A stretch of 62,392 bases of DNA from Brasilonema sp. CT11 (GTDB taxonomy: Bacteria; Cyanobacteriota; Cyanobacteriia; Cyanobacteriales; Nostocaceae), in assembly GCF_017982655.1 (NCBI RefSeq), contig NZ_JABXYX010000038.1, positions 1 to 62,392 of the forward strand. The letters run 5' to 3'. Both the position numbers and the translations under genes were made by a program. The notes under the pieces are model-generated. The model did no database searches. It was not told where the DNA came from and was given only the letters and a program-made list of their open reading frames with translations. Of this stretch, positions 6,156-54,245 are shown piece after piece (positions within the stretch are counted from its first letter, which is position 1; every line of letters begins with the position of its first letter).

Positions 6156-8624
6156 ATGACTGAAAATACTATAATAACAAACGTCTTGGAAGAAGTGAAT
6201 GGTCAACTGGTAGTTGGAAATTGGGTCATAAAGATGAATTCACCTCACGGTGCTAGTGTAAATATAGCAACTGAGGAAGAAAAACCGACTTTGCGCTCGC
6301 ATTCCACCCCATTGATACTTCAGCAACCTTTCGACTTCGCTACTTCGGCTTATCTCGACTCCGCTCGATACAAGTCGCTCAGTACAAGTCAGGGTAAACC
6401 CTCAGATAATTTTCTGGATCGACAAGAATTAGTCAAAGAAGCTATTGCTACCTTTCAAGCTGGGCAATCAGTAGAATTTTACAGTCCATCTGGTTTTGGG
6501 AAAACAGTTTTATTACGTCACTTAGAGCATAACCCTCAAGTCAAATCACTTTTCGCTGCTGGTGTCATTAGCTTATCTCCTCTCCATCCAAATGTAGGAG
6601 ATTTACTTCAGTTCATATGGGATGCTTTTTATGAAAGCAACATTCCTTATAAACCAACTCCTCAGCAAATTTGTCAACAACTTCACACAAAACAGGCTCT
6701 TGTCGTCTTAGATGATGATCCACTTATTCAAGACGAATTGCAAGAGCTGATAAATGTAGTGCCCAACTGCACCTTCCTGGTTGCTTCATCAACGAGTCGC
6801 ATCAAGAAAAAGGGGCATTCAATGAAGCTTTCTGGACTTCCCATGAATGATGCTCTGGTTTTGATGCAAAGGGAATTGCAACGTCCTTTGAATATAGAAG
6901 AACAAGAGAAAGCAAAATCGCTATATAAGATTTTAGATGGGCAGCCAATGCGCCTGCGGATAGTGATGGCGAGTATACACCAACAAAGGCGATCGCTTTC
7001 CGAAGTAGTTAGTCAATTGCCTACCTCTGCTTCAAGCAACTATCTACTTGAACAAATAATAACATCGTTATCAACATCAGAAAAAACAATTCTGGAGTTG
7101 TTAACTATTATGGGTGATGTTGGGCTTGATCATCAACAAATTACTGACATCACACAAATTTCAGATGCTTTTGACAGACTCGAAAAACTACGCAAGCATC
7201 ATCTTGTGCAGCTTGATGGCTCTCGATATAAAGTCACTAAAACTATAGTAGAGATTTTACCGCCAGAATCGAAGTTGACAGCATCTGTGGAAAAAGCGAT
7301 CGCCTACTTTGTAAATTGGACTGAACGCCACCAACAGCAACCCAATATCTTCTTAGCAGAAATTGATGCGATTGCGCAAATCTTGGAAGTCGCAGTCAGA
7401 AATAGGCGTTGGCAAGATATCTTACGCTTGGTAAAAGTAGTGGAAGGTACACTCGCTTTAAGTAAGCAATGGGGTTTGTGGGAACAAGTACTCCAAAGGG
7501 GACTACAAGCATCTCAAGCTGAAAAAGATAGATCTGTGCAAGCGTGGATATTGCATCAACTAGGAACTCGTGCTCTTTGTTTGGAAGAAAACACCACAGC
7601 TTACAATTACCTAACCAAAGCAATACAATTACGAGAATCTCTTGATGATGACATGGGAGTTGCAGCAACTGGCCACAATCTTAAATTGCTGAACCACTTT
7701 TCATCTTCACAAACTCATGCCAGTCAGCAAAAAAATATCGGTACAAATATTCCCGATTCACAAACTCATGCCAGTCAGCAAACAAATATCGGTACAAATA
7801 TTTCCGATCAAATAGTTGGAGAAGAAGATACCAGCTTGCAGCCACCCCCAGCTCCGCACCTGGTGACCAGAATGAATATAGTATCACCAGATAATAATTT
7901 TCACTCCAACAAAACTGGCTATAAAAATATTTTGGTTTCTTCAACAAAAATCATCACAACTGGAATTTTAGCAGCAGGAGGATTGTTCGCTTTCTTTCAT
8001 TGGTATCGTGTCACACCCTCACCACCCGCAAAATCCACTTCTAAACCCACAACAACTGTTAAACCCTCATCTGTTCCCAAACAGGAACCCACAGTAACCC
8101 CCACACCGTTACCAATTGTCGAATCTCCATCCACAATTATTACTCCGTCCTCACCTCTTCCTGCACCAATAATCAAAGTCAGTCCACCAATCACACCAGA
8201 TCTAGAAAACGAACAGCCAGTAGTTCCCAAACGCCAGAAATCAAAAATAAAGCCAACAACAACACCCGCGAAATCAAAACCACCCACATTCACAAAACCA
8301 ACAACAGCACCTGCAACATCAGATGCACCCACATTCACAAAACCAACTCCAGACGTAACTACAGTACCAACACCCACACCACAAGCCACCCCTACCCCAA
8401 CTTTCACGCCGTCGGTGACACCCAATGTTGAAAAAAATCAACCAACCGTAGAACCTACGCCTACTCCGACTTTTACACCAATTCCAACTCCAACACCCAC
8501 ATCACAAGTCCAAGCCATACCGACTCCAGCAGTGACAATAACACCAATTGAGCAAGTACCAAAATCAATGATTGAGAACAACACACAACTCAAGACGGAG
8601 AATACACCTAGCGCGAGTCAGTAG
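6156..8624 (+). CDS. STAND/NB-ARC-like NTPase with TPR-like helices, one membrane segment and Pro/Thr-rich tail
   Basis: 822 aa. A short beta-rich N-terminal segment (VVGNWVIKMNSPHGASVNIA, about residues 19-40) matches one seen at the front of many cyanobacterial NTPases. A P-loop follows (SPSGFGKT, Lys116), then a Walker-B-like run ALVVLDDDP, a GxP-type motif (LDGQPMRLRIV), winged-helix-like sequence and helical repeats to about residue 510. An 18-residue unit is duplicated (SQTHASQQ..NIGTNI). A single hydrophobic stretch lies near residues 590-613, followed by about 200 residues rich in Pro and Thr, probably outside the cytoplasm. Residues about 60-80 derive from a palindromic repeat. Such proteins are signal-sensing switches; the ligand is unknown, and no effector domain or EAD was recognised. 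Confidence 0.7.
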   Translation: MTENTIITNVLEEVNGQLVVGNWVIKMNSPHGASVNIATEEEKPTLRSHSTPLILQQPFDFATSAYLDSARYKSLSTSQGKPSDNFLDRQELVKEAIATFQAGQSVEFYSPSGFGKTVLLRHLEHNPQVKSLFAAGVISLSPLHPNVGDLLQFIWDAFYESNIPYKPTPQQICQQLHTKQALVVLDDDPLIQDELQELINVVPNCTFLVASSTSRIKKKGHSMKLSGLPMNDALVLMQRELQRPLNIEEQEKAKSLYKILDGQPMRLRIVMASIHQQRRSLSEVVSQLPTSASSNYLLEQIITSLSTSEKTILELLTIMGDVGLDHQQITDITQISDAFDRLEKLRKHHLVQLDGSRYKVTKTIVEILPPESKLTASVEKAIAYFVNWTERHQQQPNIFLAEIDAIAQILEVAVRNRRWQDILRLVKVVEGTLALSKQWGLWEQVLQRGLQASQAEKDRSVQAWILHQLGTRALCLEENTTAYNYLTKAIQLRESLDDDMGVAATGHNLKLLNHFSSSQTHASQQKNIGTNIPDSQTHASQQTNIGTNISDQIVGEEDTSLQPPPAPHLVTRMNIVSPDNNFHSNKTGYKNILVSSTKIITTGILAAGGLFAFFHWYRVTPSPPAKSTSKPTTTVKPSSVPKQEPTVTPTPLPIVESPSTIITPSSPLPAPIIKVSPPITPDLENEQPVVPKRQKSKIKPTTTPAKSKPPTFTKPTTAPATSDAPTFTKPTPDVTTVPTPTPQATPTPTFTPSVTPNVEKNQPTVEPTPTPTFTPIPTPTPTSQVQAIPTPAVTITPIEQVPKSMIENNTQLKTENTPSASQ
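6331..6402. repeat. Palindromic repeat element inside the NTPase CDS
   Basis: Short inverted segments of the type tcgacttcgct and ctcgactccgctcgatac, followed by gctcagtacaagtc (6377-6390), which recurs with one change in the first TonB gene (33910-33923). It is translated in frame as SAYLDSARYKSLSTSQG, a sequence unlike the rest of the protein. Confidence 0.6.
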
Positions 8625-14829: not shown

Positions 14830-15888
14830 ATGAAAGGAGAGCTTCTCAAGAGACTGTTTAAGGCGATCGCAAGTTCAGATCAACAAGCGATTGATAAGCT
14901 TACACACCTAGTAATTGAGGAAGAGCGCAGTAAGGGACACACACTCCTAGCTGACCAGTTAGAGAATATTACCAAAAAAAGCCATAAAGAGAAGCCTACC
15001 TCTAAAGCTTCGGCTTCGCTCAGCTTTAGCCCCGAGCAGAGCCGAGGGGCTAACGGCAAACCTGCGTCCCCAGCAGTATCAGAAAACTTACAGGCTCTAA
15101 GTGAACTGCCTACCAATAAGCGGTTAAATCTTCCTCTAGTCACTGTTATACCAAGGGAAAAACTGCGGCATCATATGGTGCTGCAAGAATCTGTGGAGAA
15201 ACGTTTCCGCCGAATTGAACGTGAGTATGCGGCAAGAGATAGGCTTGCTCATCATGGACTGCGTTACAGGCAAAAAATTCTTCTGTATGGTCTCCCTGGC
15301 TGTGGAAAGACACTAGGAGCTGAGCGTTTAGCTTGGAATACGGGTTTACCATTGCTTAAGGTTCGATTTGATGCAATGGTATCGTCTTTTTTGGGCGAAA
15401 CTGCCAGCAATTTGAGACTTATCTTTGAGGATGCCTCAACAAATCCATGTTTGTTGTTTTTGGATGAATGTGACTCAATTGCAAAATCAAGAGAAGACTC
15501 TCAGGAAGTAGGAGAAATTAAGCGAGTAGTGAATACATTTCTTCAAATTTTGGATGAATATGAGCCGTCCTCTGGTCTTTTGGTTGCAGCTACCAACCTC
15601 AACAAATCTCTTGATACTGCCTTGTGGAGACGATTTGATGACTTGATTGAAGTACCACTACCAGGAGAAAAAGAGCTAGAATTTATACTAAAAGAAACAC
15701 TATCTGCAATTGAAGTCGGCTCTATTAATTGGTCTACGATAATTGAACAGATGAGTGGTTTTTCTGCTGCTCAAGCTGTAAGGGTTGCACAAGATGCCGC
15801 TAAACGAGCAATCCTTGAGCGAGAGGAGCTAGTCATTCAGGAACATTTAGAAGAAGCTATTAAAGAAATCAAAGTTTCTTGGAATTAA
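14830..15888 (+). CDS. AAA+ ATPase, IetA-like, of an AAA-subtilase defence pair
   Basis: 352 aa. Residues 1-55 are helical. Residues about 58-81 are a translated palindromic repeat (15001-15072). The AAA core has Walker A GLPGCGKT (residues 154-161), Walker B CLLFLDECDS, sensor AATNLNKSLD and LWRRFDDLIEVPLPG with the arginine-finger pair. It resembles FtsH/CDC48-type ATPases that precede an S8 peptidase in IetAS anti-phage systems, first described as plasmid exclusion genes. The subtilase gene begins 24 bp downstream on the same strand, supporting one operon. Start: ATG at 14830 after gagaggcgat, a weak Shine-Dalgarno. Family firm; defence role inferred. Confidence 0.85.
   Translation: MKGELLKRLFKAIASSDQQAIDKLTHLVIEEERSKGHTLLADQLENITKKSHKEKPTSKASASLSFSPEQSRGANGKPASPAVSENLQALSELPTNKRLNLPLVTVIPREKLRHHMVLQESVEKRFRRIEREYAARDRLAHHGLRYRQKILLYGLPGCGKTLGAERLAWNTGLPLLKVRFDAMVSSFLGETASNLRLIFEDASTNPCLLFLDECDSIAKSREDSQEVGEIKRVVNTFLQILDEYEPSSGLLVAATNLNKSLDTALWRRFDDLIEVPLPGEKELEFILKETLSAIEVGSINWSTIIEQMSGFSAAQAVRVAQDAAKRAILEREELVIQEHLEEAIKEIKVSWN
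15001..15072. repeat. Palindromic repeat element inside the IetA-like CDS
   Basis: gcttcggcttcgctcagc (15007-15024) is the exact reverse complement of 18 bases in the first TonB gene (33883-33900). It is followed by a hairpin with arms ttagcccc (15026-15033) and ggggctaa (15046-15053). It encodes a Ser/Ala/Gly-rich insert in a linker before the AAA core. Confidence 0.75.
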
Positions 15889-33694: not shown

Positions 33695-36550
33695 ATGAAG
33701 CGTTGGCAATTGAAATGTGGTGTGAATTTGTGGTTGGCACTAGGTTTATCAGGATGCTTAAGTGCTGTTGCTATTCAAAGAGCATCGGCACAGGTAAAAT
33801 TGGAGAGCAAAGAAAATTCAACCCTTGATGCAGTAGCTCCCTCGATTGTAGGCGACAAAGTTAACCCTTCGGCTGCTTTTAAGCTGAGCGAAGCCGAAGC
33901 TTCGGCTGCGCTCAGCACAAGTCCGCTCACGGTTAAACAGGGGATAAATCAGACAACACAGTCCGCCGTTTTAAGCACCAGAATTGATCCTGGTGCAAAC
34001 AGTGTTAATTCAAAACCAACGCTGACAAAAAAAATTCCGCGAGTTAGTGAGATAGAGCCTCCACTTAGTAGTGCCAGAATGCTGGTGCAGTCGCCAACAC
34101 CACAAACAATACCTGCCTCAAAAATCGTACAAGTCAGCTTCGTGAAGGCAAATCCTACAAACAAAGGTTTGGAACTAGTTTTGCAAACATCACGTGCTGC
34201 TACCTTGCAACTGCAGAATCGTACTCAAGTTAATAGTAATACCTTCATCGTTGACATTCCAAACGCTCAACTGCGCTTACCACCTAATAGGGTGTTCTCT
34301 TTCCGCTCACAAAAACCAATAGCGGGAATAACCGAGATAACCGTAGTAAACTTTGACGCCAATACTATCCGGGTGACGGTGATAGGTGAAGCAGCTCCAC
34401 CAATTATCGAGTTGTATGACAGTCCCAAAGAAGGTCTGATTTTCAGTGTAGCCAGTACTGCATCTTTGGCACAACAGCGGCAGCAACCTCAAACACAACC
34501 ATCACCTACACAGCAACCAGAAAACCAGACACAACAAACTCAACCAAGAGCCAATGGTGATGAACCAATTGAGTTGGTGGTGACAGGACAGCGGGATGGA
34601 TACAATTCATCCGATGCATCAACTGCAACCAAAACCGATACTCCTTTACGCGACATTCCCCAGTCAATTCAAGCCATCCCCGCAACTGTGATTCAAGATC
34701 AAGGTGCAGTTCGTCTGAACGAAATCGTCCGTAATGTTAGTGGTGTGGCAAATGCAGGAACTGCTGGGGAGCGTGGAGAAAATTACACAATTCGGGGATT
34801 CGATGCCAACGTTTACAAAAATGGTTTCCTTGATGATTACTTTACTACTCGCGGGTTTCGAGACAGCGCCAATATCGAGCGAGTTGAAGTTCTTAAAGGA
34901 CCAGCGTCGGTGTTGTTTGGACGCTTGGAACCTTCGGGTATCATCAACTTGATAACCAAGAAGCCATTAGCCGAACCTTATTACAATTTCAGTTTTACCG
35001 CAGGTAGCTATAGTTTTTATCGCCCCACCCTAGATTTTTCAGGTCCATTAACCCAGGACGGAAAATTGGGTTATCGTCTCAACATTGCCTACGAAAATTC
35101 TGGAAGTTTCCGCGACTTTGTTAACAAAGAAAGATTTTTTATCGCTCCTGTACTCAGTTGGAAAATTGGTGACAAGACAAACCTGACTTTGGAAGGTGAA
35201 TATCTCCACACCGAAAATTCTTATGATGATGGGCTATATCTAATTGGCGGTAAGATTATTCCAAATGTTCCGATTAGCCGCAATCTCAACGACCCCAGAA
35301 GTCAAATCGGTATAGATGCATCACAAACCTACTTGACTCTCAATCATGAGTTTAATCAAAATTTATCCCTGCGTACTGCTTTTCGGGTGACGACTGCATC
35401 AGAAACAGTTAATCGTTTTGCCCTTAGAGGATTTGGTGCCAGTGACGACGGAACTGTTGATCTTCTTAGTGTGCCCTATAATTATTATTTTGAAACTTAT
35501 TTTCTACAGAATGACTTAACTGCGAAATTCAACACTGGCTTCCTCAAGCATACACTTTTGTTTGGTCTGGAGCTTGGTCGATTGTATGACAGACGTCTGT
35601 CCAATTATCAAAGTGTTGGTAGTAGTAACGTTTTTAACCCTGTCTACAACTTTTCTTATGGTTCATATCAACCGCTTGACAATACAGCAACCAATACCAA
35701 CTCTTTCGGAATTTATCTTCAAGATCAGATAAGTGTTTTTGATAATCTCAAACTCCTTGTTGGTGGCAGGTTTGACACTTATCATTCGGAAAGACAAGAT
35801 TTCAACAATGACTCAACTACAGTCACAGATAGCGATGCGTTTTCACCTCGTGTGGGAGTCGTTTACCAACCGACGAAAGAAATCTCACTGTTTGCTAACT
35901 ATAGTCGCTCATTTGTTCCTGTGAGTGGTTCTAGTAAAAACGGTGATGCTTTTGAGCCTACAAGGGGAACTGGATACGAAGTTGGCATCAAAGGAAACTT
36001 TTTAAATAATCGTCTCTCTTCTACCCTCGCCTTCTACACAGTTACCAAAACTAATGTCTTAACTGCCGATCCCAGCGATCCCACAGGTACCTTTTCAATT
36101 CAAGTCGGCGAACAACGCGCTCGTGGGATTGAGTTGGATATTGCTGGAGAAATCTTACCTGGTTGGAAAGTCATTGCTTCCTACGCTTATACAGATGCAC
36201 AAATCACTGAAGACAATACATATCCAGTCGGAAATACTCTGGGTAGTATACCCCAGCATAGTGGCTCATTGTGGACGACCTATACCTTTCAAAAAGGAGC
36301 ATTAGAAGGGTTTGGTTTTGGTGGAGGTATCTTTGCTGCAAGCGAGGCTTATGGAGATGTAAGTAACTTTAACACCGTACCTGGTTTTGTACGGACTGAT
36401 GCAGCACTTTTCTACAAAAAGGATCGCTTGAGAGCATCTGTTAACTTCAAGAACTTATTTGATATCAGATATTTCGAGGGCGCAACTACGGGTGCAGTCA
36501 ATCCGGCTGAACCGTTTACCGTTCAAGGAACGATTTCTTGGGAGTTCTGA
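33695..36550 (+). CDS. TonB-dependent siderophore receptor with AMIN domain
   Basis: 951 aa from the ATG at 33695, preceded by gaggag. A signal peptide (LWLALGLSGCLSAVAIQ) is followed by a low-complexity part, then an AMIN-like domain (about residues 145-255: VQVSFVKANPTNKGLELVLQ), a Gln/Pro-rich linker, a plug domain (TDTPLRDIPQSIQAIP, VRNVSGVA) and a 22-strand barrel ending in the outer-membrane signature aromatic (TISWEF). It imports ferric siderophores across the outer membrane with TonB energy. The stretch KLSEAEASAALSTS near residue 65 is translated from a palindromic repeat missing from the paralogue at 51540-54245. It lies downstream of a PchR-like regulator. Confidence 0.93.
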   Translation: MKRWQLKCGVNLWLALGLSGCLSAVAIQRASAQVKLESKENSTLDAVAPSIVGDKVNPSAAFKLSEAEASAALSTSPLTVKQGINQTTQSAVLSTRIDPGANSVNSKPTLTKKIPRVSEIEPPLSSARMLVQSPTPQTIPASKIVQVSFVKANPTNKGLELVLQTSRAATLQLQNRTQVNSNTFIVDIPNAQLRLPPNRVFSFRSQKPIAGITEITVVNFDANTIRVTVIGEAAPPIIELYDSPKEGLIFSVASTASLAQQRQQPQTQPSPTQQPENQTQQTQPRANGDEPIELVVTGQRDGYNSSDASTATKTDTPLRDIPQSIQAIPATVIQDQGAVRLNEIVRNVSGVANAGTAGERGENYTIRGFDANVYKNGFLDDYFTTRGFRDSANIERVEVLKGPASVLFGRLEPSGIINLITKKPLAEPYYNFSFTAGSYSFYRPTLDFSGPLTQDGKLGYRLNIAYENSGSFRDFVNKERFFIAPVLSWKIGDKTNLTLEGEYLHTENSYDDGLYLIGGKIIPNVPISRNLNDPRSQIGIDASQTYLTLNHEFNQNLSLRTAFRVTTASETVNRFALRGFGASDDGTVDLLSVPYNYYFETYFLQNDLTAKFNTGFLKHTLLFGLELGRLYDRRLSNYQSVGSSNVFNPVYNFSYGSYQPLDNTATNTNSFGIYLQDQISVFDNLKLLVGGRFDTYHSERQDFNNDSTTVTDSDAFSPRVGVVYQPTKEISLFANYSRSFVPVSGSSKNGDAFEPTRGTGYEVGIKGNFLNNRLSSTLAFYTVTKTNVLTADPSDPTGTFSIQVGEQRARGIELDIAGEILPGWKVIASYAYTDAQITEDNTYPVGNTLGSIPQHSGSLWTTYTFQKGALEGFGFGGGIFAASEAYGDVSNFNTVPGFVRTDAALFYKKDRLRASVNFKNLFDIRYFEGATTGAVNPAEPFTVQGTISWEF
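33883..33923. repeat. Palindromic repeat inside the TonB receptor gene
   Basis: A near-perfect palindrome at 33883-33916 (gctgagcgaagccgaagc followed by ttcggctgcgctcagc), then acaagtc. It shares 18 exact bases with the element in the IetA-like gene and gctcag(c/t)acaagtc with the STAND NTPase gene. Confidence 0.8.
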
Positions 36551-38622: not shown

Positions 38623-40845
38623 TTATGGTGTTGTTGGGGTCGGTGTCGGTGTTGGTGTGAGTGTGGGTGTGGATGTTGGTGTTGGCGTGGATATTGGTGT
38701 TGGTGTTGGTGTTGGTGTAGACGTTACTGTTGGTGTAGGCGTGGGTGTCGGTGTCTCTGTAGGCGTGGGTATCGGTGTTTCTGTAGGCGTGGGTGAGAAT
38801 GTCGGTGTCGGTGTTGGTGTAACGGTTTCTATAGGAGTTGGGGTAGGCGATGGAGGTGGAGCAGGATTTTCTGCTGTAATTGCAAGGCTATAATCTGATG
38901 TATTTGACCCCGTGGCAACAATCACATATTCATAAAATCCACTTTCTGGAAGTTTAACGGATAAACTACGTTGTGTTGAATCTTCCAAAAATCGCGATTT
39001 TCCACTGGGGGAATACACGGAAAGCAAAATTTTAGAATTCGCATTGAGCCTGACTCTCATCGATTGCTGTTCGTTAAGTTCGGCGATAAAAACTTTACCT
39101 TCCCCTGGTTTGAGAGTACCACTAACTCTGGTACTAATAGCTCCTTTGTCAAAGGCTATTTTCTTGAAAGCACTGCCAGAAAGGATAGCATTGAGTTTGT
39201 CGCTGACAAAACCTTGCCAAACTTGTCCAATGGGTTGATCGATAAAATTCTTGCCGCGCTGTTGTGGAAATTGCTGATAAAATGCTGCATCTGCTAAATC
39301 ATATAAAGAACGACTACCAACGTTGATTTGGTTGACTTCGACTTTTGCGCGATCGCGTTCTGCTTGTCCAAAACTACCCAATTTTTGACGTGCATTTGAA
39401 CTCAAAACAGTGAGTTTTTCTAGGAGTTCTTCGGCTAAACTGTCCCATTGTGCCCGCAATTGTTCATCTTCGGGCTGATCACTCAAAGTACGGTTGCGTA
39501 GACTTGGATTTTTCTCCCAAAAGACTTGATTAACTAAGTTAGTAAAAAATTTATTGTCGATATTGAGTTGTTGACGGCGTTGATCTAATTTTTCTTTACG
39601 CTGTTGTTCTTGTAAGGAAAGTTTTGGATCGTTAGGCGACAGGGACGAAGAATCAAATAACTGATTTGCTCCCCACATACCCACACTAACAGCAGTAGCC
39701 AAAACCACGACTATGGCAATGATTTTACCAGGTGTCCACCAGTTGACGGTGGGAGTAGGAGAGGACGGGTTTGTGTAAGGTGACGATTCTTGTCGAGTGG
39801 GAGGAGTGGGAGTCGGGGATACAGCTAGAGTTTGTTTTGTTTGTGGCGGTGGTGAAATTGGAACAGGTTGCTGTGGAGAAGGATAGCTGACAGGTGATAA
39901 GTTTAGTGCTTGCAGAACTTGATTAGCGCTTTGATAGCGTTGTTTTGGTTTTGGCGATAGCATTTTATCCAACACCATCCCGAAACTCGGGCTGAGGTTA
40001 ACTTCTCGTCGCCATTGCCAGGTGAGGGTATATTCATCTATTAATTCTTGGGGTTGTTTGCCTGTTAGCAAAACGAGTACTGTTGCAGCTAAAGCATACA
40101 AATCGCTATGAGGCTCTACTAACCCAGTTTGCATCTGTTCTGGGGGTGAGTATCCTATCTTACCCAATAGTGTTGGGAGTCCGGGAGAAACTGCACCAGG
40201 TTGATAATATTGCGAGACGACTGTTGCAGCGACTTGTTTAACCCCACCAAAATCGATTAATACTGGGAGTTGGTCAGTATTGCGTAAAATTAAGTTGTCA
40301 GGAGATATATCACGGTGAATCACTCCTATAGAATGGATGTATTGCAAAACAGGCAGAATTTGCTGCATGAGCAAACTCACTTCCGCTTCTGTAAATCGTA
40401 AACCTTGCTGCTTCTTTGCATCAAACAAAGAGCTGTAAGTTTGCCCTTCTACAAAGTCTTGCACCAGAAACAGGTATTCCTTACCACCTAAGTTAATGCG
40501 CAAAAGTTCCCGGAAGCGGGGAATTTGCGGGTGTTGCAGCTTGTAGAGAACGCTGGCTTCTCGCTGAAACAGTTCTTCAGCTTTTTGTAAAACGTATGGT
40601 GTTTGAACTTGAGGGGAGAATTCTTTTAAAACACAAGGTTCGCGAAAGCGGTTAACATCCTCAGCTAAATAAGTACGTCCAAAACCTCCCTGTCCCAATT
40701 GACGGACAATAAAGTAGCGATCGCCCAAAGTTTGCCCATTTTGAATACCTTGACTCACTGGGTTATCCAAACTTTCGCCGCAGTGTAAACAAAAGCGACT
40801 ACCAGTTGGATTTTCGTGTCCTTTAGAGCAATAAACAGAATTCAT
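38623..40845 (-). CDS. Ser/Thr protein kinase with N-terminal zinc ribbon and C-terminal sensor-like domain
   Basis: 740 aa. N-terminal zinc ribbon ([20 protein letters not shown]), then a kinase domain (about 43-315) with glycine loop [10 protein letters not shown], Lys in CVLKEF, catalytic loop [10 protein letters not shown] and LIDFGGVK. The loop has Ser where most kinases have Lys (HRDxKxxN), a known bacterial variant. A transmembrane helix (about 375-393) leads to a conserved region shared with the adjacent paralogue, then a pre-peptidase-C-like beta domain ([24 protein letters not shown]). The last 75 residues are Pro-Thr repeats from a hexamer microsatellite. Probably an envelope-sensing kinase; stimulus unknown. 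Confidence 0.9.
38630..38840. repeat. Hexamer microsatellite encoding Pro-Thr repeats
   Basis: Degenerate (ggtgt(t/c/g))n run of about 200 bp at the 3' end of the kinase gene. Prone to slippage in multiples of 6 bp, which would change tail length without breaking the frame. Confidence 0.85.
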
Positions 40846-50195: not shown

Positions 50196-50290
50196 GTTCA
50201 GACGTTCGGACGTTCGGCGAAGCTTCGACGCCGCTCCGCTTCCGCTCAGTCGAGCCGCGAAGCCTCAGTTGAGCCGCTGAGCTCACCACG
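50196..50290. repeat. GC-rich palindromic repeat that supplies the C-terminus of a PepSY protein
   Basis: Contains agcttcgacgccgctccgct, tccgctcagtcgagccgcg and cagttgagccgctgagctc, a run of short inverted repeats related to the gctcag family. The minus-strand stop of the PepSY gene (50246) falls inside it. Confidence 0.75.
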
Positions 50291-51433
50291 TTTCTGTGAT
50301 AGTTTTATGACACTATCGCCTACACTAACTTTTGCCCGATAGCGATACCACCACATGACAATACCACTCACGAATAGAACAAACGGTATATATCCAACAA
50401 AGACGTAGAAAATGCGAGATGGCAATCCCCAGAATGTACCATAGTGTAGGGGAGTAAAAGAGTTGATGATGCGATCGCCCAATGACACCTTCAAAGAACT
50501 ATCAACTCGCAATACCTTACCACTATATTGGTCAAGATAAACACTGCTTTGACCATAATCCTCAGTTTCTTGGGGAAGTTTAAAAGCAACTGTTAAAGCT
50601 TCTTCTGGTTTAGTTGGAAAATAAATTCTCTTGAGTTCTCCTTGAGGTAAAGCAGCTTGAGCCGTTTGTAATTGTTCTTTTAGTCCTAGTGGAGACTTAC
50701 CAGGAATGAGAACAGAAACTGGAGTCGGTTGCTGCTTGGAGAAACTGAGTGTGTAAATCATCGGGTTGACGAATTCAGAGAAGCTCCAGCAAAATCCTGT
50801 GAAAAATGCGAAGATTAAAAATACTGCTGCAATAATGCCACCAACTTTGTGAATATCAAAGTAAAGTCGCTTGGGATGGGCATTCCACTTGATTTTGAAT
50901 CCAGATATCAACTTGCGCCAACCAGGCCAAAGGATAATACCTGAAATACTCATAAACGACATCAGTAAACCAATAGTCCCCACAAACTTATAGCCAATGT
51001 CACCGCCTAAGAGAGCATAGTGGAGTGGGTAGAGGATTTCAAAAGACTGTTGGATGAAGCTTGGCTGTAGGTTATTACCCAGAATTGCTCCAGTGTAAGG
51101 GTTAACGTAGTTTTCTGTCCATTCTTTTTGTTTGGTTTTGAGAACAACATTCATCGGCTCATTTGGCTTGTTTGGCAGGTAAATCCTCTGCACTGGTGCG
51201 TCTGGTTGCGAAGCATAGGTTTTTTTGACAATGTTGAGAACAACCTCAACTGGCAGAGGTTCACCTTGAGGGGTGATTGTGCCAATTCGACGCTGCTGAT
51301 CAAAGCTGCTAATTTCGGAATGGAAGACTAATAAACTACCAGTTAAGCCGACAATAATTGCAATCAGTCCCACCGCTAAACCGATGTAGCGGTGTAGGGT
51401 AAATATCAAGTCGCGTAGTTTTTTAGAGTTCAT
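50246..51433 (-). CDS. PepSY-associated transmembrane protein (paralogue)
   Basis: 395 aa. Same four-helix plan as the protein at 36700-37896, including the near-identical opening KLRDLIFTLHRYIGLAVGL, the WRKLISGFKIKWNAHPKRLY loop and FVGYIPFVLFVSGIVMWWYR. It lies 106 bp downstream of the second TonB receptor on the same strand, so the receptor-PepSY pairing is conserved in both modules. The last residues (GELSGSTEASRLD) are translated repeat DNA that replaces the original C-terminus. Role inferred: inner-membrane step of siderophore-iron use. Confidence 0.9.
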   Translation of the reverse strand: MNSKKLRDLIFTLHRYIGLAVGLIAIIVGLTGSLLVFHSEISSFDQQRRIGTITPQGEPLPVEVVLNIVKKTYASQPDAPVQRIYLPNKPNEPMNVVLKTKQKEWTENYVNPYTGAILGNNLQPSFIQQSFEILYPLHYALLGGDIGYKFVGTIGLLMSFMSISGIILWPGWRKLISGFKIKWNAHPKRLYFDIHKVGGIIAAVFLIFAFFTGFCWSFSEFVNPMIYTLSFSKQQPTPVSVLIPGKSPLGLKEQLQTAQAALPQGELKRIYFPTKPEEALTVAFKLPQETEDYGQSSVYLDQYSGKVLRVDSSLKVSLGDRIINSFTPLHYGTFWGLPSRIFYVFVGYIPFVLFVSGIVMWWYRYRAKVSVGDSVIKLSQKRGELSGSTEASRLD

Positions 51434-51539: not shown

Positions 51540-54245
51540 TCAAAACTCCCAAGAAATTGTTCCTTGAACTGTAAAAGGTGCAGCAGGATAGGCTGAGCCA
51601 AAAGAAGCGCTCTCGAAATATCTGGTACTAAATAGGTTCTTGAAATTAACAGATGCTCTCAAGCGATCCTTTTTGTAGAAAAGTGCCGCATCAGTCCGTA
51701 TAAAACCAGGTAAGGAGTAAGAGTTATCCAGATCTCCATAAGTTTTGCTTGCTGCAAAAATACCTCCACCAAAACCAAAACCTTGTAATGATCCTGTTTG
51801 AAATGTATAAGTTGTCCACAATGAACCACTATGTTGTGGTGTCGTACCCAGAGCATTTCCGACTGGATAGCTATTGTCTTTAGTGATTTCTGCATCCGTA
51901 TAAGCGTATGAACCAATCACTTTCCAACCAGGTAAGATTTCTCCAGCAATATCGAACTCAATTCCACGGGCGCGTTGTTCGCCAGTCTGAATTTCAAAGT
52001 TAGCGGGATCGCTGGGATCGGCGGTTACGACATTGGTTTTGGTAACTGTGTAGAGAGCTAAAGTAGAGGACAGACGATTATTTAAAAAGTCTCCTTTGAT
52101 GCCGACTTCGTAGCCAGTTGCCCGTTCAGGCACAAAAGCATTATCGTTCTTATCGCTACCACTAACAGGAACAAACGAGCGACTATAGTTGGCAAACAGT
52201 GAAATTTCTTTCGTCGGTTGGTAAACAATTCCCACACGGGGTGAAAACGCATCGCTATCTGTCTTTGTGGTTGTGGAATTGAGAAAATTTTCATTTTCTG
52301 AATGATACGTATCAAATCTGCCACCTATCAAGAGTTTAAGATTATCAAACACATCAATTTGATCTTGCAGGTAAATGCCAAAAGAGTTGATGTCTTCTGC
52401 TCTATCAACGGATCGTCGAGATGCACCATAAGAAAACTCGTAGACCGGATTAAAAATATTGATCGACTGATTAGGTCTGGAATCGTTCTTTTGCCTCCGA
52501 GACTCCCAACCAAACTCTACTCCAAACAAAACCGTATGCTTGATAGAACCAGTATTGAATTTAGCTGTTAAATCGTTCTGTAAATAATAAGTTTGATCAA
52601 AAAGGCTTTGGGAAACACTCAGAAGATTAAGAGTTCCGTCCTCACTGGCTCTAAATCCTTGAAGCGCAAAAGGGTTGTTTGTGCTTGCAAAAGTCGTTGC
52701 CCGAAAAGCAGTACGCAGGGATAAGTTCTGATTAAAGTCATGATTTAAAGTCAGGTAGGTTCTGGTTTGATCTTTTACGCTTAGATTTCTGGGATCACTC
52801 AGATAGCGGCTAATCGGAACATCGGGAATCCGATTGCCAATTGACGCCAGCCCACGATCATAAGGAATTTCAGAGTGGAGATATTCACCTTCAAAAGTCA
52901 GGTTTGTCTTATCACCAATTTTCCAAGCGAGTACAGGAGCGATAAAAAACCTTTCTTGATCAACAAAGTCGCGGAAACTTCCAGAATTTTCGTAGGCAAT
53001 GTTGAGACGATAACCCAATTTTCCGTCAGCCGTGACCGGACCAGAAAAATCCAGGGTGGGGCGATAAAAACTGTAGCTACCTGCGGTAAAACTTAAGTTG
53101 TAGTAGGGTTCGGCTAATGGCTTCTTGGTTACCAAGTTGATGATACCCGAAGGTTCTAAGCGTCCAAACAACACGGAAGCTGGTCCTTTGAGGACTTCAA
53201 CCCGCTCAATATTGGCGCTGTCTCGAAAGCTAAAACCAGCGTAACCCCCGTCAGAGAAACCATTTTTGTAAACATTAGCATCGAATCCTCGAATTGTGTA
53301 ACCTTCTGTCTGATTACCACTATTGTTTGAAGTTGCCACACCACTGACATTACGGACGATTTCGTTCAGACGATTTGCACCTTGATCTTGAATCACGGTT
53401 GCTGGGATGACTTGAATCGACTGGGGAATGTCGCGTAAAGGAGTATCGGTTTTGGTTGCAGTTGATGCATCGGATGAATTGTATCCATCCTGCTGTCCTG
53501 TCACCACCAATTCAATCGGTTCATCACCATTCGCTCTTGGTTGAGTTTGTTGTGTCTGACTTTCTGGTTGCTGTGCACCTGGCTGTTGTGTTTGAGGTTG
53601 CTGTCCCTGTTGTGCCAAAGATGCAGTACTGGCTACACTGAAGACCAGACCTTCTTTTGGACTGTCAAACAACTCAACAATTGGTGGAGTGGCTTCACCT
53701 ATCACCGTCACCCGGATAGTATTGGCGTCAAAGTTCGTTACGGTTATCTCGGTAATACCCGCTATTGGTTTTTGTGAGCGGAATACGAACGGTCTGTTAC
53801 CAGGTGCACGCAGTTGAGCATTGGGAATGTCAACGATGAAGGTATTACTATTTACCTGAGTACGATTCTGCAGTTGCAAGGTAGCAGCTTTGGAAGTTTG
53901 CAAAACCAGTTCCAAACCTCTGTTTGTAGGATTTGCCTTCACGAAGCTGACTTGTACAACTCGTGAAGCAGGTGTCGTTTGTGGTGTTGGCGACTGCACC
54001 AACATTCTGGCACTACGAAGTGGACGCTCTATCTCATTGACTCGCGGAATTTCTGTTATCGGTTTAACCAACCCGGAATTAGTGACCACAGATGCTTGTT
54101 GAGTTGAGTTTGCAGCAGTTTGAGTAGATACTGTACTCTTGTCAAGTGCAATTGCTGATTTCTTCTGAGCTAATGCAGGAGTTGTAAACAGAGTTAATAT
54201 TGCGCCTGTAACGAAGAAACTCAGATAACGGTGCTTATATTTCAT
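51540..54245 (-). CDS. TonB-dependent siderophore receptor with AMIN domain (paralogue)
   Basis: 901 aa. Signal peptide (LSFFVTGAILTLFTTPALAQ), AMIN-like domain, Gln/Pro-rich linker, plug (TDTPLRDIPQSIQVIP) and barrel ending TISWEF. By eye it is largely identical to the receptor at 33695-36550 from the AMIN domain onwards. It differs at the N-terminus, where the other copy has a palindromic repeat insertion, and in extracellular loops (e.g. around residues 440 and 590), which may change siderophore specificity. It has no AraC or Fur gene of its own. An inverted repeat (ggaatatt..aatattttcc, about 54300-54320) in its upstream region may be a binding site. Confidence 0.93.
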   Translation of the reverse strand: MKYKHRYLSFFVTGAILTLFTTPALAQKKSAIALDKSTVSTQTAANSTQQASVVTNSGLVKPITEIPRVNEIERPLRSARMLVQSPTPQTTPASRVVQVSFVKANPTNRGLELVLQTSKAATLQLQNRTQVNSNTFIVDIPNAQLRAPGNRPFVFRSQKPIAGITEITVTNFDANTIRVTVIGEATPPIVELFDSPKEGLVFSVASTASLAQQGQQPQTQQPGAQQPESQTQQTQPRANGDEPIELVVTGQQDGYNSSDASTATKTDTPLRDIPQSIQVIPATVIQDQGANRLNEIVRNVSGVATSNNSGNQTEGYTIRGFDANVYKNGFSDGGYAGFSFRDSANIERVEVLKGPASVLFGRLEPSGIINLVTKKPLAEPYYNLSFTAGSYSFYRPTLDFSGPVTADGKLGYRLNIAYENSGSFRDFVDQERFFIAPVLAWKIGDKTNLTFEGEYLHSEIPYDRGLASIGNRIPDVPISRYLSDPRNLSVKDQTRTYLTLNHDFNQNLSLRTAFRATTFASTNNPFALQGFRASEDGTLNLLSVSQSLFDQTYYLQNDLTAKFNTGSIKHTVLFGVEFGWESRRQKNDSRPNQSINIFNPVYEFSYGASRRSVDRAEDINSFGIYLQDQIDVFDNLKLLIGGRFDTYHSENENFLNSTTTKTDSDAFSPRVGIVYQPTKEISLFANYSRSFVPVSGSDKNDNAFVPERATGYEVGIKGDFLNNRLSSTLALYTVTKTNVVTADPSDPANFEIQTGEQRARGIEFDIAGEILPGWKVIGSYAYTDAEITKDNSYPVGNALGTTPQHSGSLWTTYTFQTGSLQGFGFGGGIFAASKTYGDLDNSYSLPGFIRTDAALFYKKDRLRASVNFKNLFSTRYFESASFGSAYPAAPFTVQGTISWEF

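Follow-up and report, generated by a model that had tools for sequence, protein, structure and literature searches.

In 2008, Elhai et al., in a study cited in PMC3116915, PMC2884548 and PMC4390886, reportedly described small dispersed repeats (SDRs) of 21-27 nt in Nostoc, a cyanobacterial host; these are said to form hairpins with compensatory changes, to insert into copies of themselves and to have been mobile recently. The Rickettsia palindromic elements (RPEs) are longer, 105-146 bp, and have given rise to intragenic insertions in 19 reading frames, according to the accessible part of PMC2229807. In addition, REPs have been reported inside genes in several species as well as in cyanobacteria (accessible part of PMC3733652), and REPINs are treated in PMC3116915, also accessible in part.

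The window, a stretch of 62,392 nt, is the entire contig C289 of the 8.79-Mb genome of Brasilonema sp. CT11. A sequence-only reading of it had pointed to palindromic repeat sequences in an ATPase gene, a STAND NTPase gene, a TonB receptor gene and the end of a PepSY gene, and had proposed a mobile repeat able to create new protein segments. We found the described sequence at all four places, and the copies in the ATPase, STAND and TonB genes are translated in frame. Our comparative analysis indicates that these three copies very probably belong to a family of mobile, non-autonomous hairpins, each exactly 24 nt long, which supply new protein segments of 8, 16 or 24 residues. Since 24 is a multiple of three, an insertion within a gene adds eight amino acids and leaves the frame unshifted.

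Structure and genomic distribution of the 24-nt unit

The unit has the layout x2-core16-x2'-z4, in which a conserved 16-nt core, CTTCGRCTNCGCTCAG, lies between two mutually pairing arms of 2 nt that vary in sequence, followed by a 4-nt tail. We identified 79 exact copies of the core (34+45) in the 8.8-Mb genome and 95 copies when up to one mismatch was allowed, while the reversed-pattern control gave 0 in both searches. The pattern GCTTCGGCTTCGCTCAGC occurs four times in the genome and CTTCGRCTNCGCTCAGNACAAGTC, with up to three mismatches, 29 times, again with 0 matches to the reversed controls. Because the "ACAAGTC" form represents one tail class, a search restricted to it misses part of the family. 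The exact core was present in 35 of the 59 genomes searched (the CT11 genome and 58 relatives) at 0 to 200 copies each, and its distribution is thus patchy even inside the genus. A plasmid search returned similar short matches in 13 records, from Sphingomonas (8), Microcystis (2), Gloeothece (2) and Pseudanabaena (1), and we base no conclusion on these.

Arms and tails were analysed at 78 sites, leaving out the intergenic core site C4:11288. The arms flanking the core were complementary at 66 of these, compared with a mean of 24.5 and a maximum of 35 in 1000 shuffles, and when CC arms were excluded pairing was still seen at 30 of 37 sites (shuffled mean 7.3, maximum 15). Eight arm types are represented among the arm-paired sites. 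The commonest tails at these 66 sites are TAAA (17) and CAAG (14), followed by TTGA and ACCA (6 each) and TTAA and TGAA (5 each), with others, including TCAA and TTAG, being fewer. When five stretches were folded as DNA, two folded clearly better than their shuffles, namely the nested TonB hairpin (z -4.2) and the L134 site (z -2.6); folding gave no such support for the ATPase insert (z -0.65), the single unit at L221:2347 (z -0.74) or the STAND stack (z -0.51).

Several individual sites have features of their own. L196 (C306:53809-53848) is a double hairpin that departs from the usual doublet in that its middle, between the cores, appears inverted, and at C22:40956 the arms form a perfect 16-bp palindrome. 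Short tandem words such as AGTCAAA and TTTTGAA flank some cores (loci L111, L115, L188, L203 and L205).

The genome-wide count of copies inside and outside genes placed 37 of the 79 exact cores in called genes and the remaining 42 in intergenic DNA. The gene calls came from a script based on hexamer scores, with a coding fraction of 0.80 in a sample of 885,533 bases; at that fraction 62.7 of 78 cores would be expected in genes against the 37 observed (binomial P about 1e-10), so that in-gene cores are depleted yet common. Only one of the 16 one-mismatch cores lies in a gene, and ten of the 16, all intergenic, belong to another repeat, which is longer and has CTTCGACGCCGCTC as its core variant. 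The in-gene sites (n = 38) occupy five of the six frame and strand settings (15, 11, 6, 5 and 1 sites). The sixth setting places TGA within the core, and the rarest of the five runs into TAA or TGA in the usual tails. Copies that harm a protein would be removed and tolerated ones would persist.

This excess of intergenic copies, in sequence that is about 80% coding where sampled, also fits ordinary REP-like hairpins selected as RNA or DNA structures, such as terminators or gyrase sites, with the in-gene copies being accidental. Intergenic-only classes point the same way, an example being TG-core-CA-ACCA, for which six of six copies are intergenic. Nevertheless, selection of this kind leaves unexplained the 24-nt step, the stacking of units and the way in which copies inside conserved genes are cleanly present in some same-genus genomes and absent from others, and we regard it as improbable.

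Pfam matches among the 30 carrier proteins scanned include a class-II glutamine amidotransferase (glutamate-synthase-like), CpeT, a class II aldolase, CHASE2, DUF2887, PriA, a phytochrome, a 7TM-HD protein, TPR/CHAT proteins and two TnpB-like transposases. A Mur ligase that carries the core is probably MurC. Six in-gene sites fall in low-scoring calls (below 50) and are less secure (C22:93366, two at C52, C61:19933, C72:40739 and C330:939), although the calls at C52, C61 and C330 nonetheless have Pfam matches. In the two TnpB-like (OrfB_IS605) genes, L103 and L202, the core directly follows the TNB domain, close to the position at which such elements usually encode their guide RNA.

Repeat-derived segments in genes of the window and in NRPS genes

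The AAA ATPase gene (14830-15888) carries a 48-bp insert of two 24-nt units in its linker (15006-15053, plus strand), which adds 16 residues ahead of the AAA domain (residues 150-277). On the plus strand the insert consists of a hairpin (15006-15025), TTAG (15026-15029), a second hairpin (15030-15049) and CTAA (15050-15053), and in the alignment it is directly preceded by CTAA (15002-15005). The two tails are successive reverse complements of the CTAA upstream, and the same CTAA/TTAG pattern recurs at L134 and in an insert of the same-genus genome G002 at L057:5009. The protein matches cyanobacterial homologues, for example from Westiellopsis and Nostoc, at 84-86%. The segment was seen in none of 45 orthologues and the exact core in none of 46 fetched ATPase loci. 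In a DNA alignment of these 46 loci, five were unaligned at this place (L169, L173 and L179-L181) and the others had no insert; L150, whose flank matches best, has the uninterrupted sequence TCTAACGGC.

In ATPase orthologues of other strains (L143, L145, L149 and L177), this linker holds a different cyanobacterial repeat, CGAGACGCTACGCGAAC, in frame, which is a second coding repeat at this position. As a different repeat is present there in some relatives from Nostoc and Anabaena, the linker tolerates repeats.

Coding segments of about 72 nt had been proposed from the sequence alone, and this is the total length in the STAND and TonB genes, where each segment is a stack of 24-nt units. In the STAND/NB-ARC gene (6156-8624), the stack occupies 6327-6398 on the plus strand and consists of an outer CC-core-GG-TAAA unit split by 48 bp at 6341-6388. 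In the TonB receptor gene, a stack close to the N-terminus (33865-33936, plus strand) has an outer CC-core-GG-TTAA unit split by 48 bp at 33874-33921. Parsed by eye with the unit structure, the innermost TonB unit is AG-core-CT-TAAA (33878-33901, minus strand), enclosed by a TG-core-CA-CAAG unit made up of 33874-33877 and 33902-33921, which gives a putative order of nesting. At both places the same-genus genome G004 has the outer 24-nt unit only and the window has 48 bp more inside it; stacks grow by 24 or 48 nt within an earlier unit, and a fully empty STAND or TonB site was found in none of the compared relatives. The sites had been located correctly in the first reading and their limits are corrected here, to 48 bp in the ATPase and 72 bp in each of the other two genes. 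Likewise, the exact match shared on opposite strands by the ATPase and the receptor is real, and it extends over 22 bases rather than the 18 first reported.

The PepSY gene (50246-51433) does end in repeat DNA, as had been proposed, and this DNA is a related but distinct repeat (50200-50290, minus strand) that covers its last residues and stop codon, is longer than the 24-nt unit and has the core variant CTTCGACGCCGCTC. The G004 orthologue and a paralogue in the window end in ...DANGIAHESNTHELL, whereas the window copy ends in ...GELSGSTEASRLD. We rejected this site as a member of the 24-nt family and consider it a C-terminal replacement that ends in the distinct repeat. The TonB receptor genes with PepSY partners at 34024-36550 and 51540-54060 of the window form an inverted pair whose arms are 76-89% alike.

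Additions of similar length were found in the NRPS genes of the CT11 genome. Compared with their closest sister modules, three condensation domains have 8 additional residues and one has 16, while two adenylation domains have 24 additional residues (25 against two of the sisters), one of them having a further 16. The three 8-residue copies are probably a single insertion spread by module duplication.

Filled and empty sites and possible routes of movement

We compared the CT11 genome (G000) with five alignable genomes of the same genus (G001-G005) and identified seven sites with both filled and empty versions, at which the inserts are exactly 24 bp and the length is otherwise unchanged. The 24 bp are absent from all five relatives at L221:2347 and L221:17306, and from three of four at L221:8337, where G001 is filled. 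PriA and a TPR gene, both in the L220 stretch, each lack them in four of five relatives, with G001 again filled. In a Met-zincin gene (L114) they are absent from four of five relatives, and G002 has its own, different 48-bp insert there, beside the same TCAA and in the opposite orientation. In the TPR/CHAT gene at L134 they are absent from G002 and G001 and present in G004; a 66%-identical match in G005 is likewise gapped, and the match in G003 is unaligned at the site. A third site in the PriA stretch, the intergenic L220:11749, has no clean 24-bp difference, G003 having the same core and the others differing over longer stretches.

Three insertions are common to CT11 and G001 even though genomes closer to CT11, as judged from flank identities, are empty. 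This sharing requires precise loss, repeated insertion or recombination, and it suggests precise loss, as a single-strand HUH route would give. At L057:6636, the G004 copy of the 24-nt family seems to have another kind of repeat nested in the loop of its core, giving a 47-nt indel.

An indel scan blind to the core, run between CT11 and G001-G005 in alignments spanning 1,500 columns or more at 82% identity or higher, gave 117 indels of at least 4 nt in stretches partly picked for holding cores (contig C2, in which no core was detected even when one mismatch was allowed, was not so picked). Among lengths of 16-99 nt, the commonest were 24 (nine rows, one insertion being counted twice) and 48 (five), followed by 18 and 21 with three each. 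The 24-nt family accounts for four of the eight indels of 24 nt, with the double count merged, and four of the five of 48 nt; the remainder are tandem repeats, such as those at window positions 38736 and 44544, or other sequences. These tandem repeats lend something to the idea that the segments are conserved protein or local tandem duplications whose shared words reflect convergence in codon usage. However, orthologues without the segment were found, and the core occurs in unrelated genes, in five frame and strand settings, as well as between genes, which makes that explanation extremely improbable. Given that the repeat is spread throughout the genome and that its segments are missing from the ATPase orthologues and, in several other genes, from same-genus copies, its mobile, coding and segment-making character is well supported, as the sequence-only reading had proposed.

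The tails bear on how the units move. At 16 of the 66 arm-paired sites the 4 nt upstream of the unit are the reverse complement of the tail (shuffled mean 1.9, maximum 7), the number of events being fewer than 16 since some pairs of sites make up a single doublet. Complementarity between the inserted tail and pre-existing bases was seen at five places: L134, L114, the G002 insert at L114, the ATPase and L057:5009. The other 50 of the 66 sites, including five with empty versions (the three L221 sites, PriA and the TPR gene), have no such complementarity, and the tail rule therefore holds for part of the 24-nt family only.

A tail copied from its target might be produced by replication template switching (quasi-palindrome synthesis) rather than by transposition, with a hairpin priming on the upstream flank and copying 4 nt. 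This would account for the reverse-complement tails at L134, L114, the ATPase and the G002 insert at L057:5009, and also for the tail of the G002 insert at L114, which is a reverse complement on the other strand. By itself, though, template switching would not carry the core elsewhere, and the tail rule is broken at the L221 sites, in PriA and in the TPR gene, where the tails are TAAA or TGAA; as a full account it seems unlikely to us. Mobile hairpins remain our preferred reading, and for the origin of the tail its main rival is snap-back copying of the target.

Such units would move as single-stranded hairpins, most likely with the help of an IS200/IS605- or RAYT-type HUH transposase acting in trans, and in part of the family the tail would pair with the 4 nt of the target or be copied from them by snap-back synthesis. 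The CT11 genome has five Y1_Tnp genes, one of which (L078) is RAYT-like by eye. No core was found within about 1.5 kb on each side of any of the five, so the enzyme is one that we infer; the only repeat word at these loci is CTGAGC, once in each of two, and neither is a core. More tentatively, the family may be one of the smallest transposable units known, 24 nt long, with an exchangeable tail of 4 nt that reads the target by pairing or snap-back copying, with an eight-codon length kept for colonising coding sequence, including that of essential enzymes, and with stacking there in 8-residue steps.

Significance and comparison with described systems

The 24-nt family would represent mobile DNA that adds protein segments in fixed steps of eight residues, a clear case with filled and empty sister genes. 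It makes testable the mobility of a 24-nt unit, selection on length modulo three, and the tolerance of PriA and the Mur ligase to inserts. It is also a warning for annotation, as peptides such as LSGAEG, PSTSLRVNP, FGSAQGKP or TCTERLV, when met in proteins of cyanobacteria, may represent repeat DNA rather than domains. The core sequence, in six spellings, had no match in a search of paper texts, which is weak evidence given that these were mostly papers free of subscription and that repeats are rarely written out.

The SDRs, as reportedly described by Elhai et al. in 2008, share with this family a size close to 24 bp, a cyanobacterial host and recent mobility. Their hairpins with compensatory changes have a counterpart in the arms, which pair at 66 of 78 sites in eight types, and their self-insertion in the STAND and TonB stacks, which measure 72 nt in the window against 24 nt in G004. 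The present analysis contributes the step of eight codons, the x2-core-x2'-z4 anatomy and the match between tail and target, the comparison with the SDRs being one of general features.

The RPEs, as far as the accessible part of PMC2229807 describes them, are like the 24-nt family in being palindromic and in occurring in intergenic DNA as well as in frame within conserved protein genes that are unrelated to one another. The likeness to Rickettsia elements seen in the sequence thus extends to the way the repeat works, whereas membership was rejected on length, since RPEs measure 105-146 bp and the unit described here is 24 nt, grows by stacking and has a cyanobacterial host. The GTAG/CGTC-tagged REPs and the REPIN-RAYT systems, in the accessible parts of PMC3733652 and PMC3116915, are similar in their short hairpins and inverted doublets and in lying in some cases within genes. 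Neither tag, GTAG or CGTC, occurs among the 3' tails of the 66 arm-paired sites (the 3' side being the one compared), and copies beside the transposase, a feature of REPIN-RAYT, were seen at none of the five Y1_Tnp loci. Overall, coding palindromes and tiny cyanobacterial repeats are already known, and what is apparently new in this family is the coding quantum of 24 nt, the modular tail, which at some sites complements its target, and the direct observation of empty sites.
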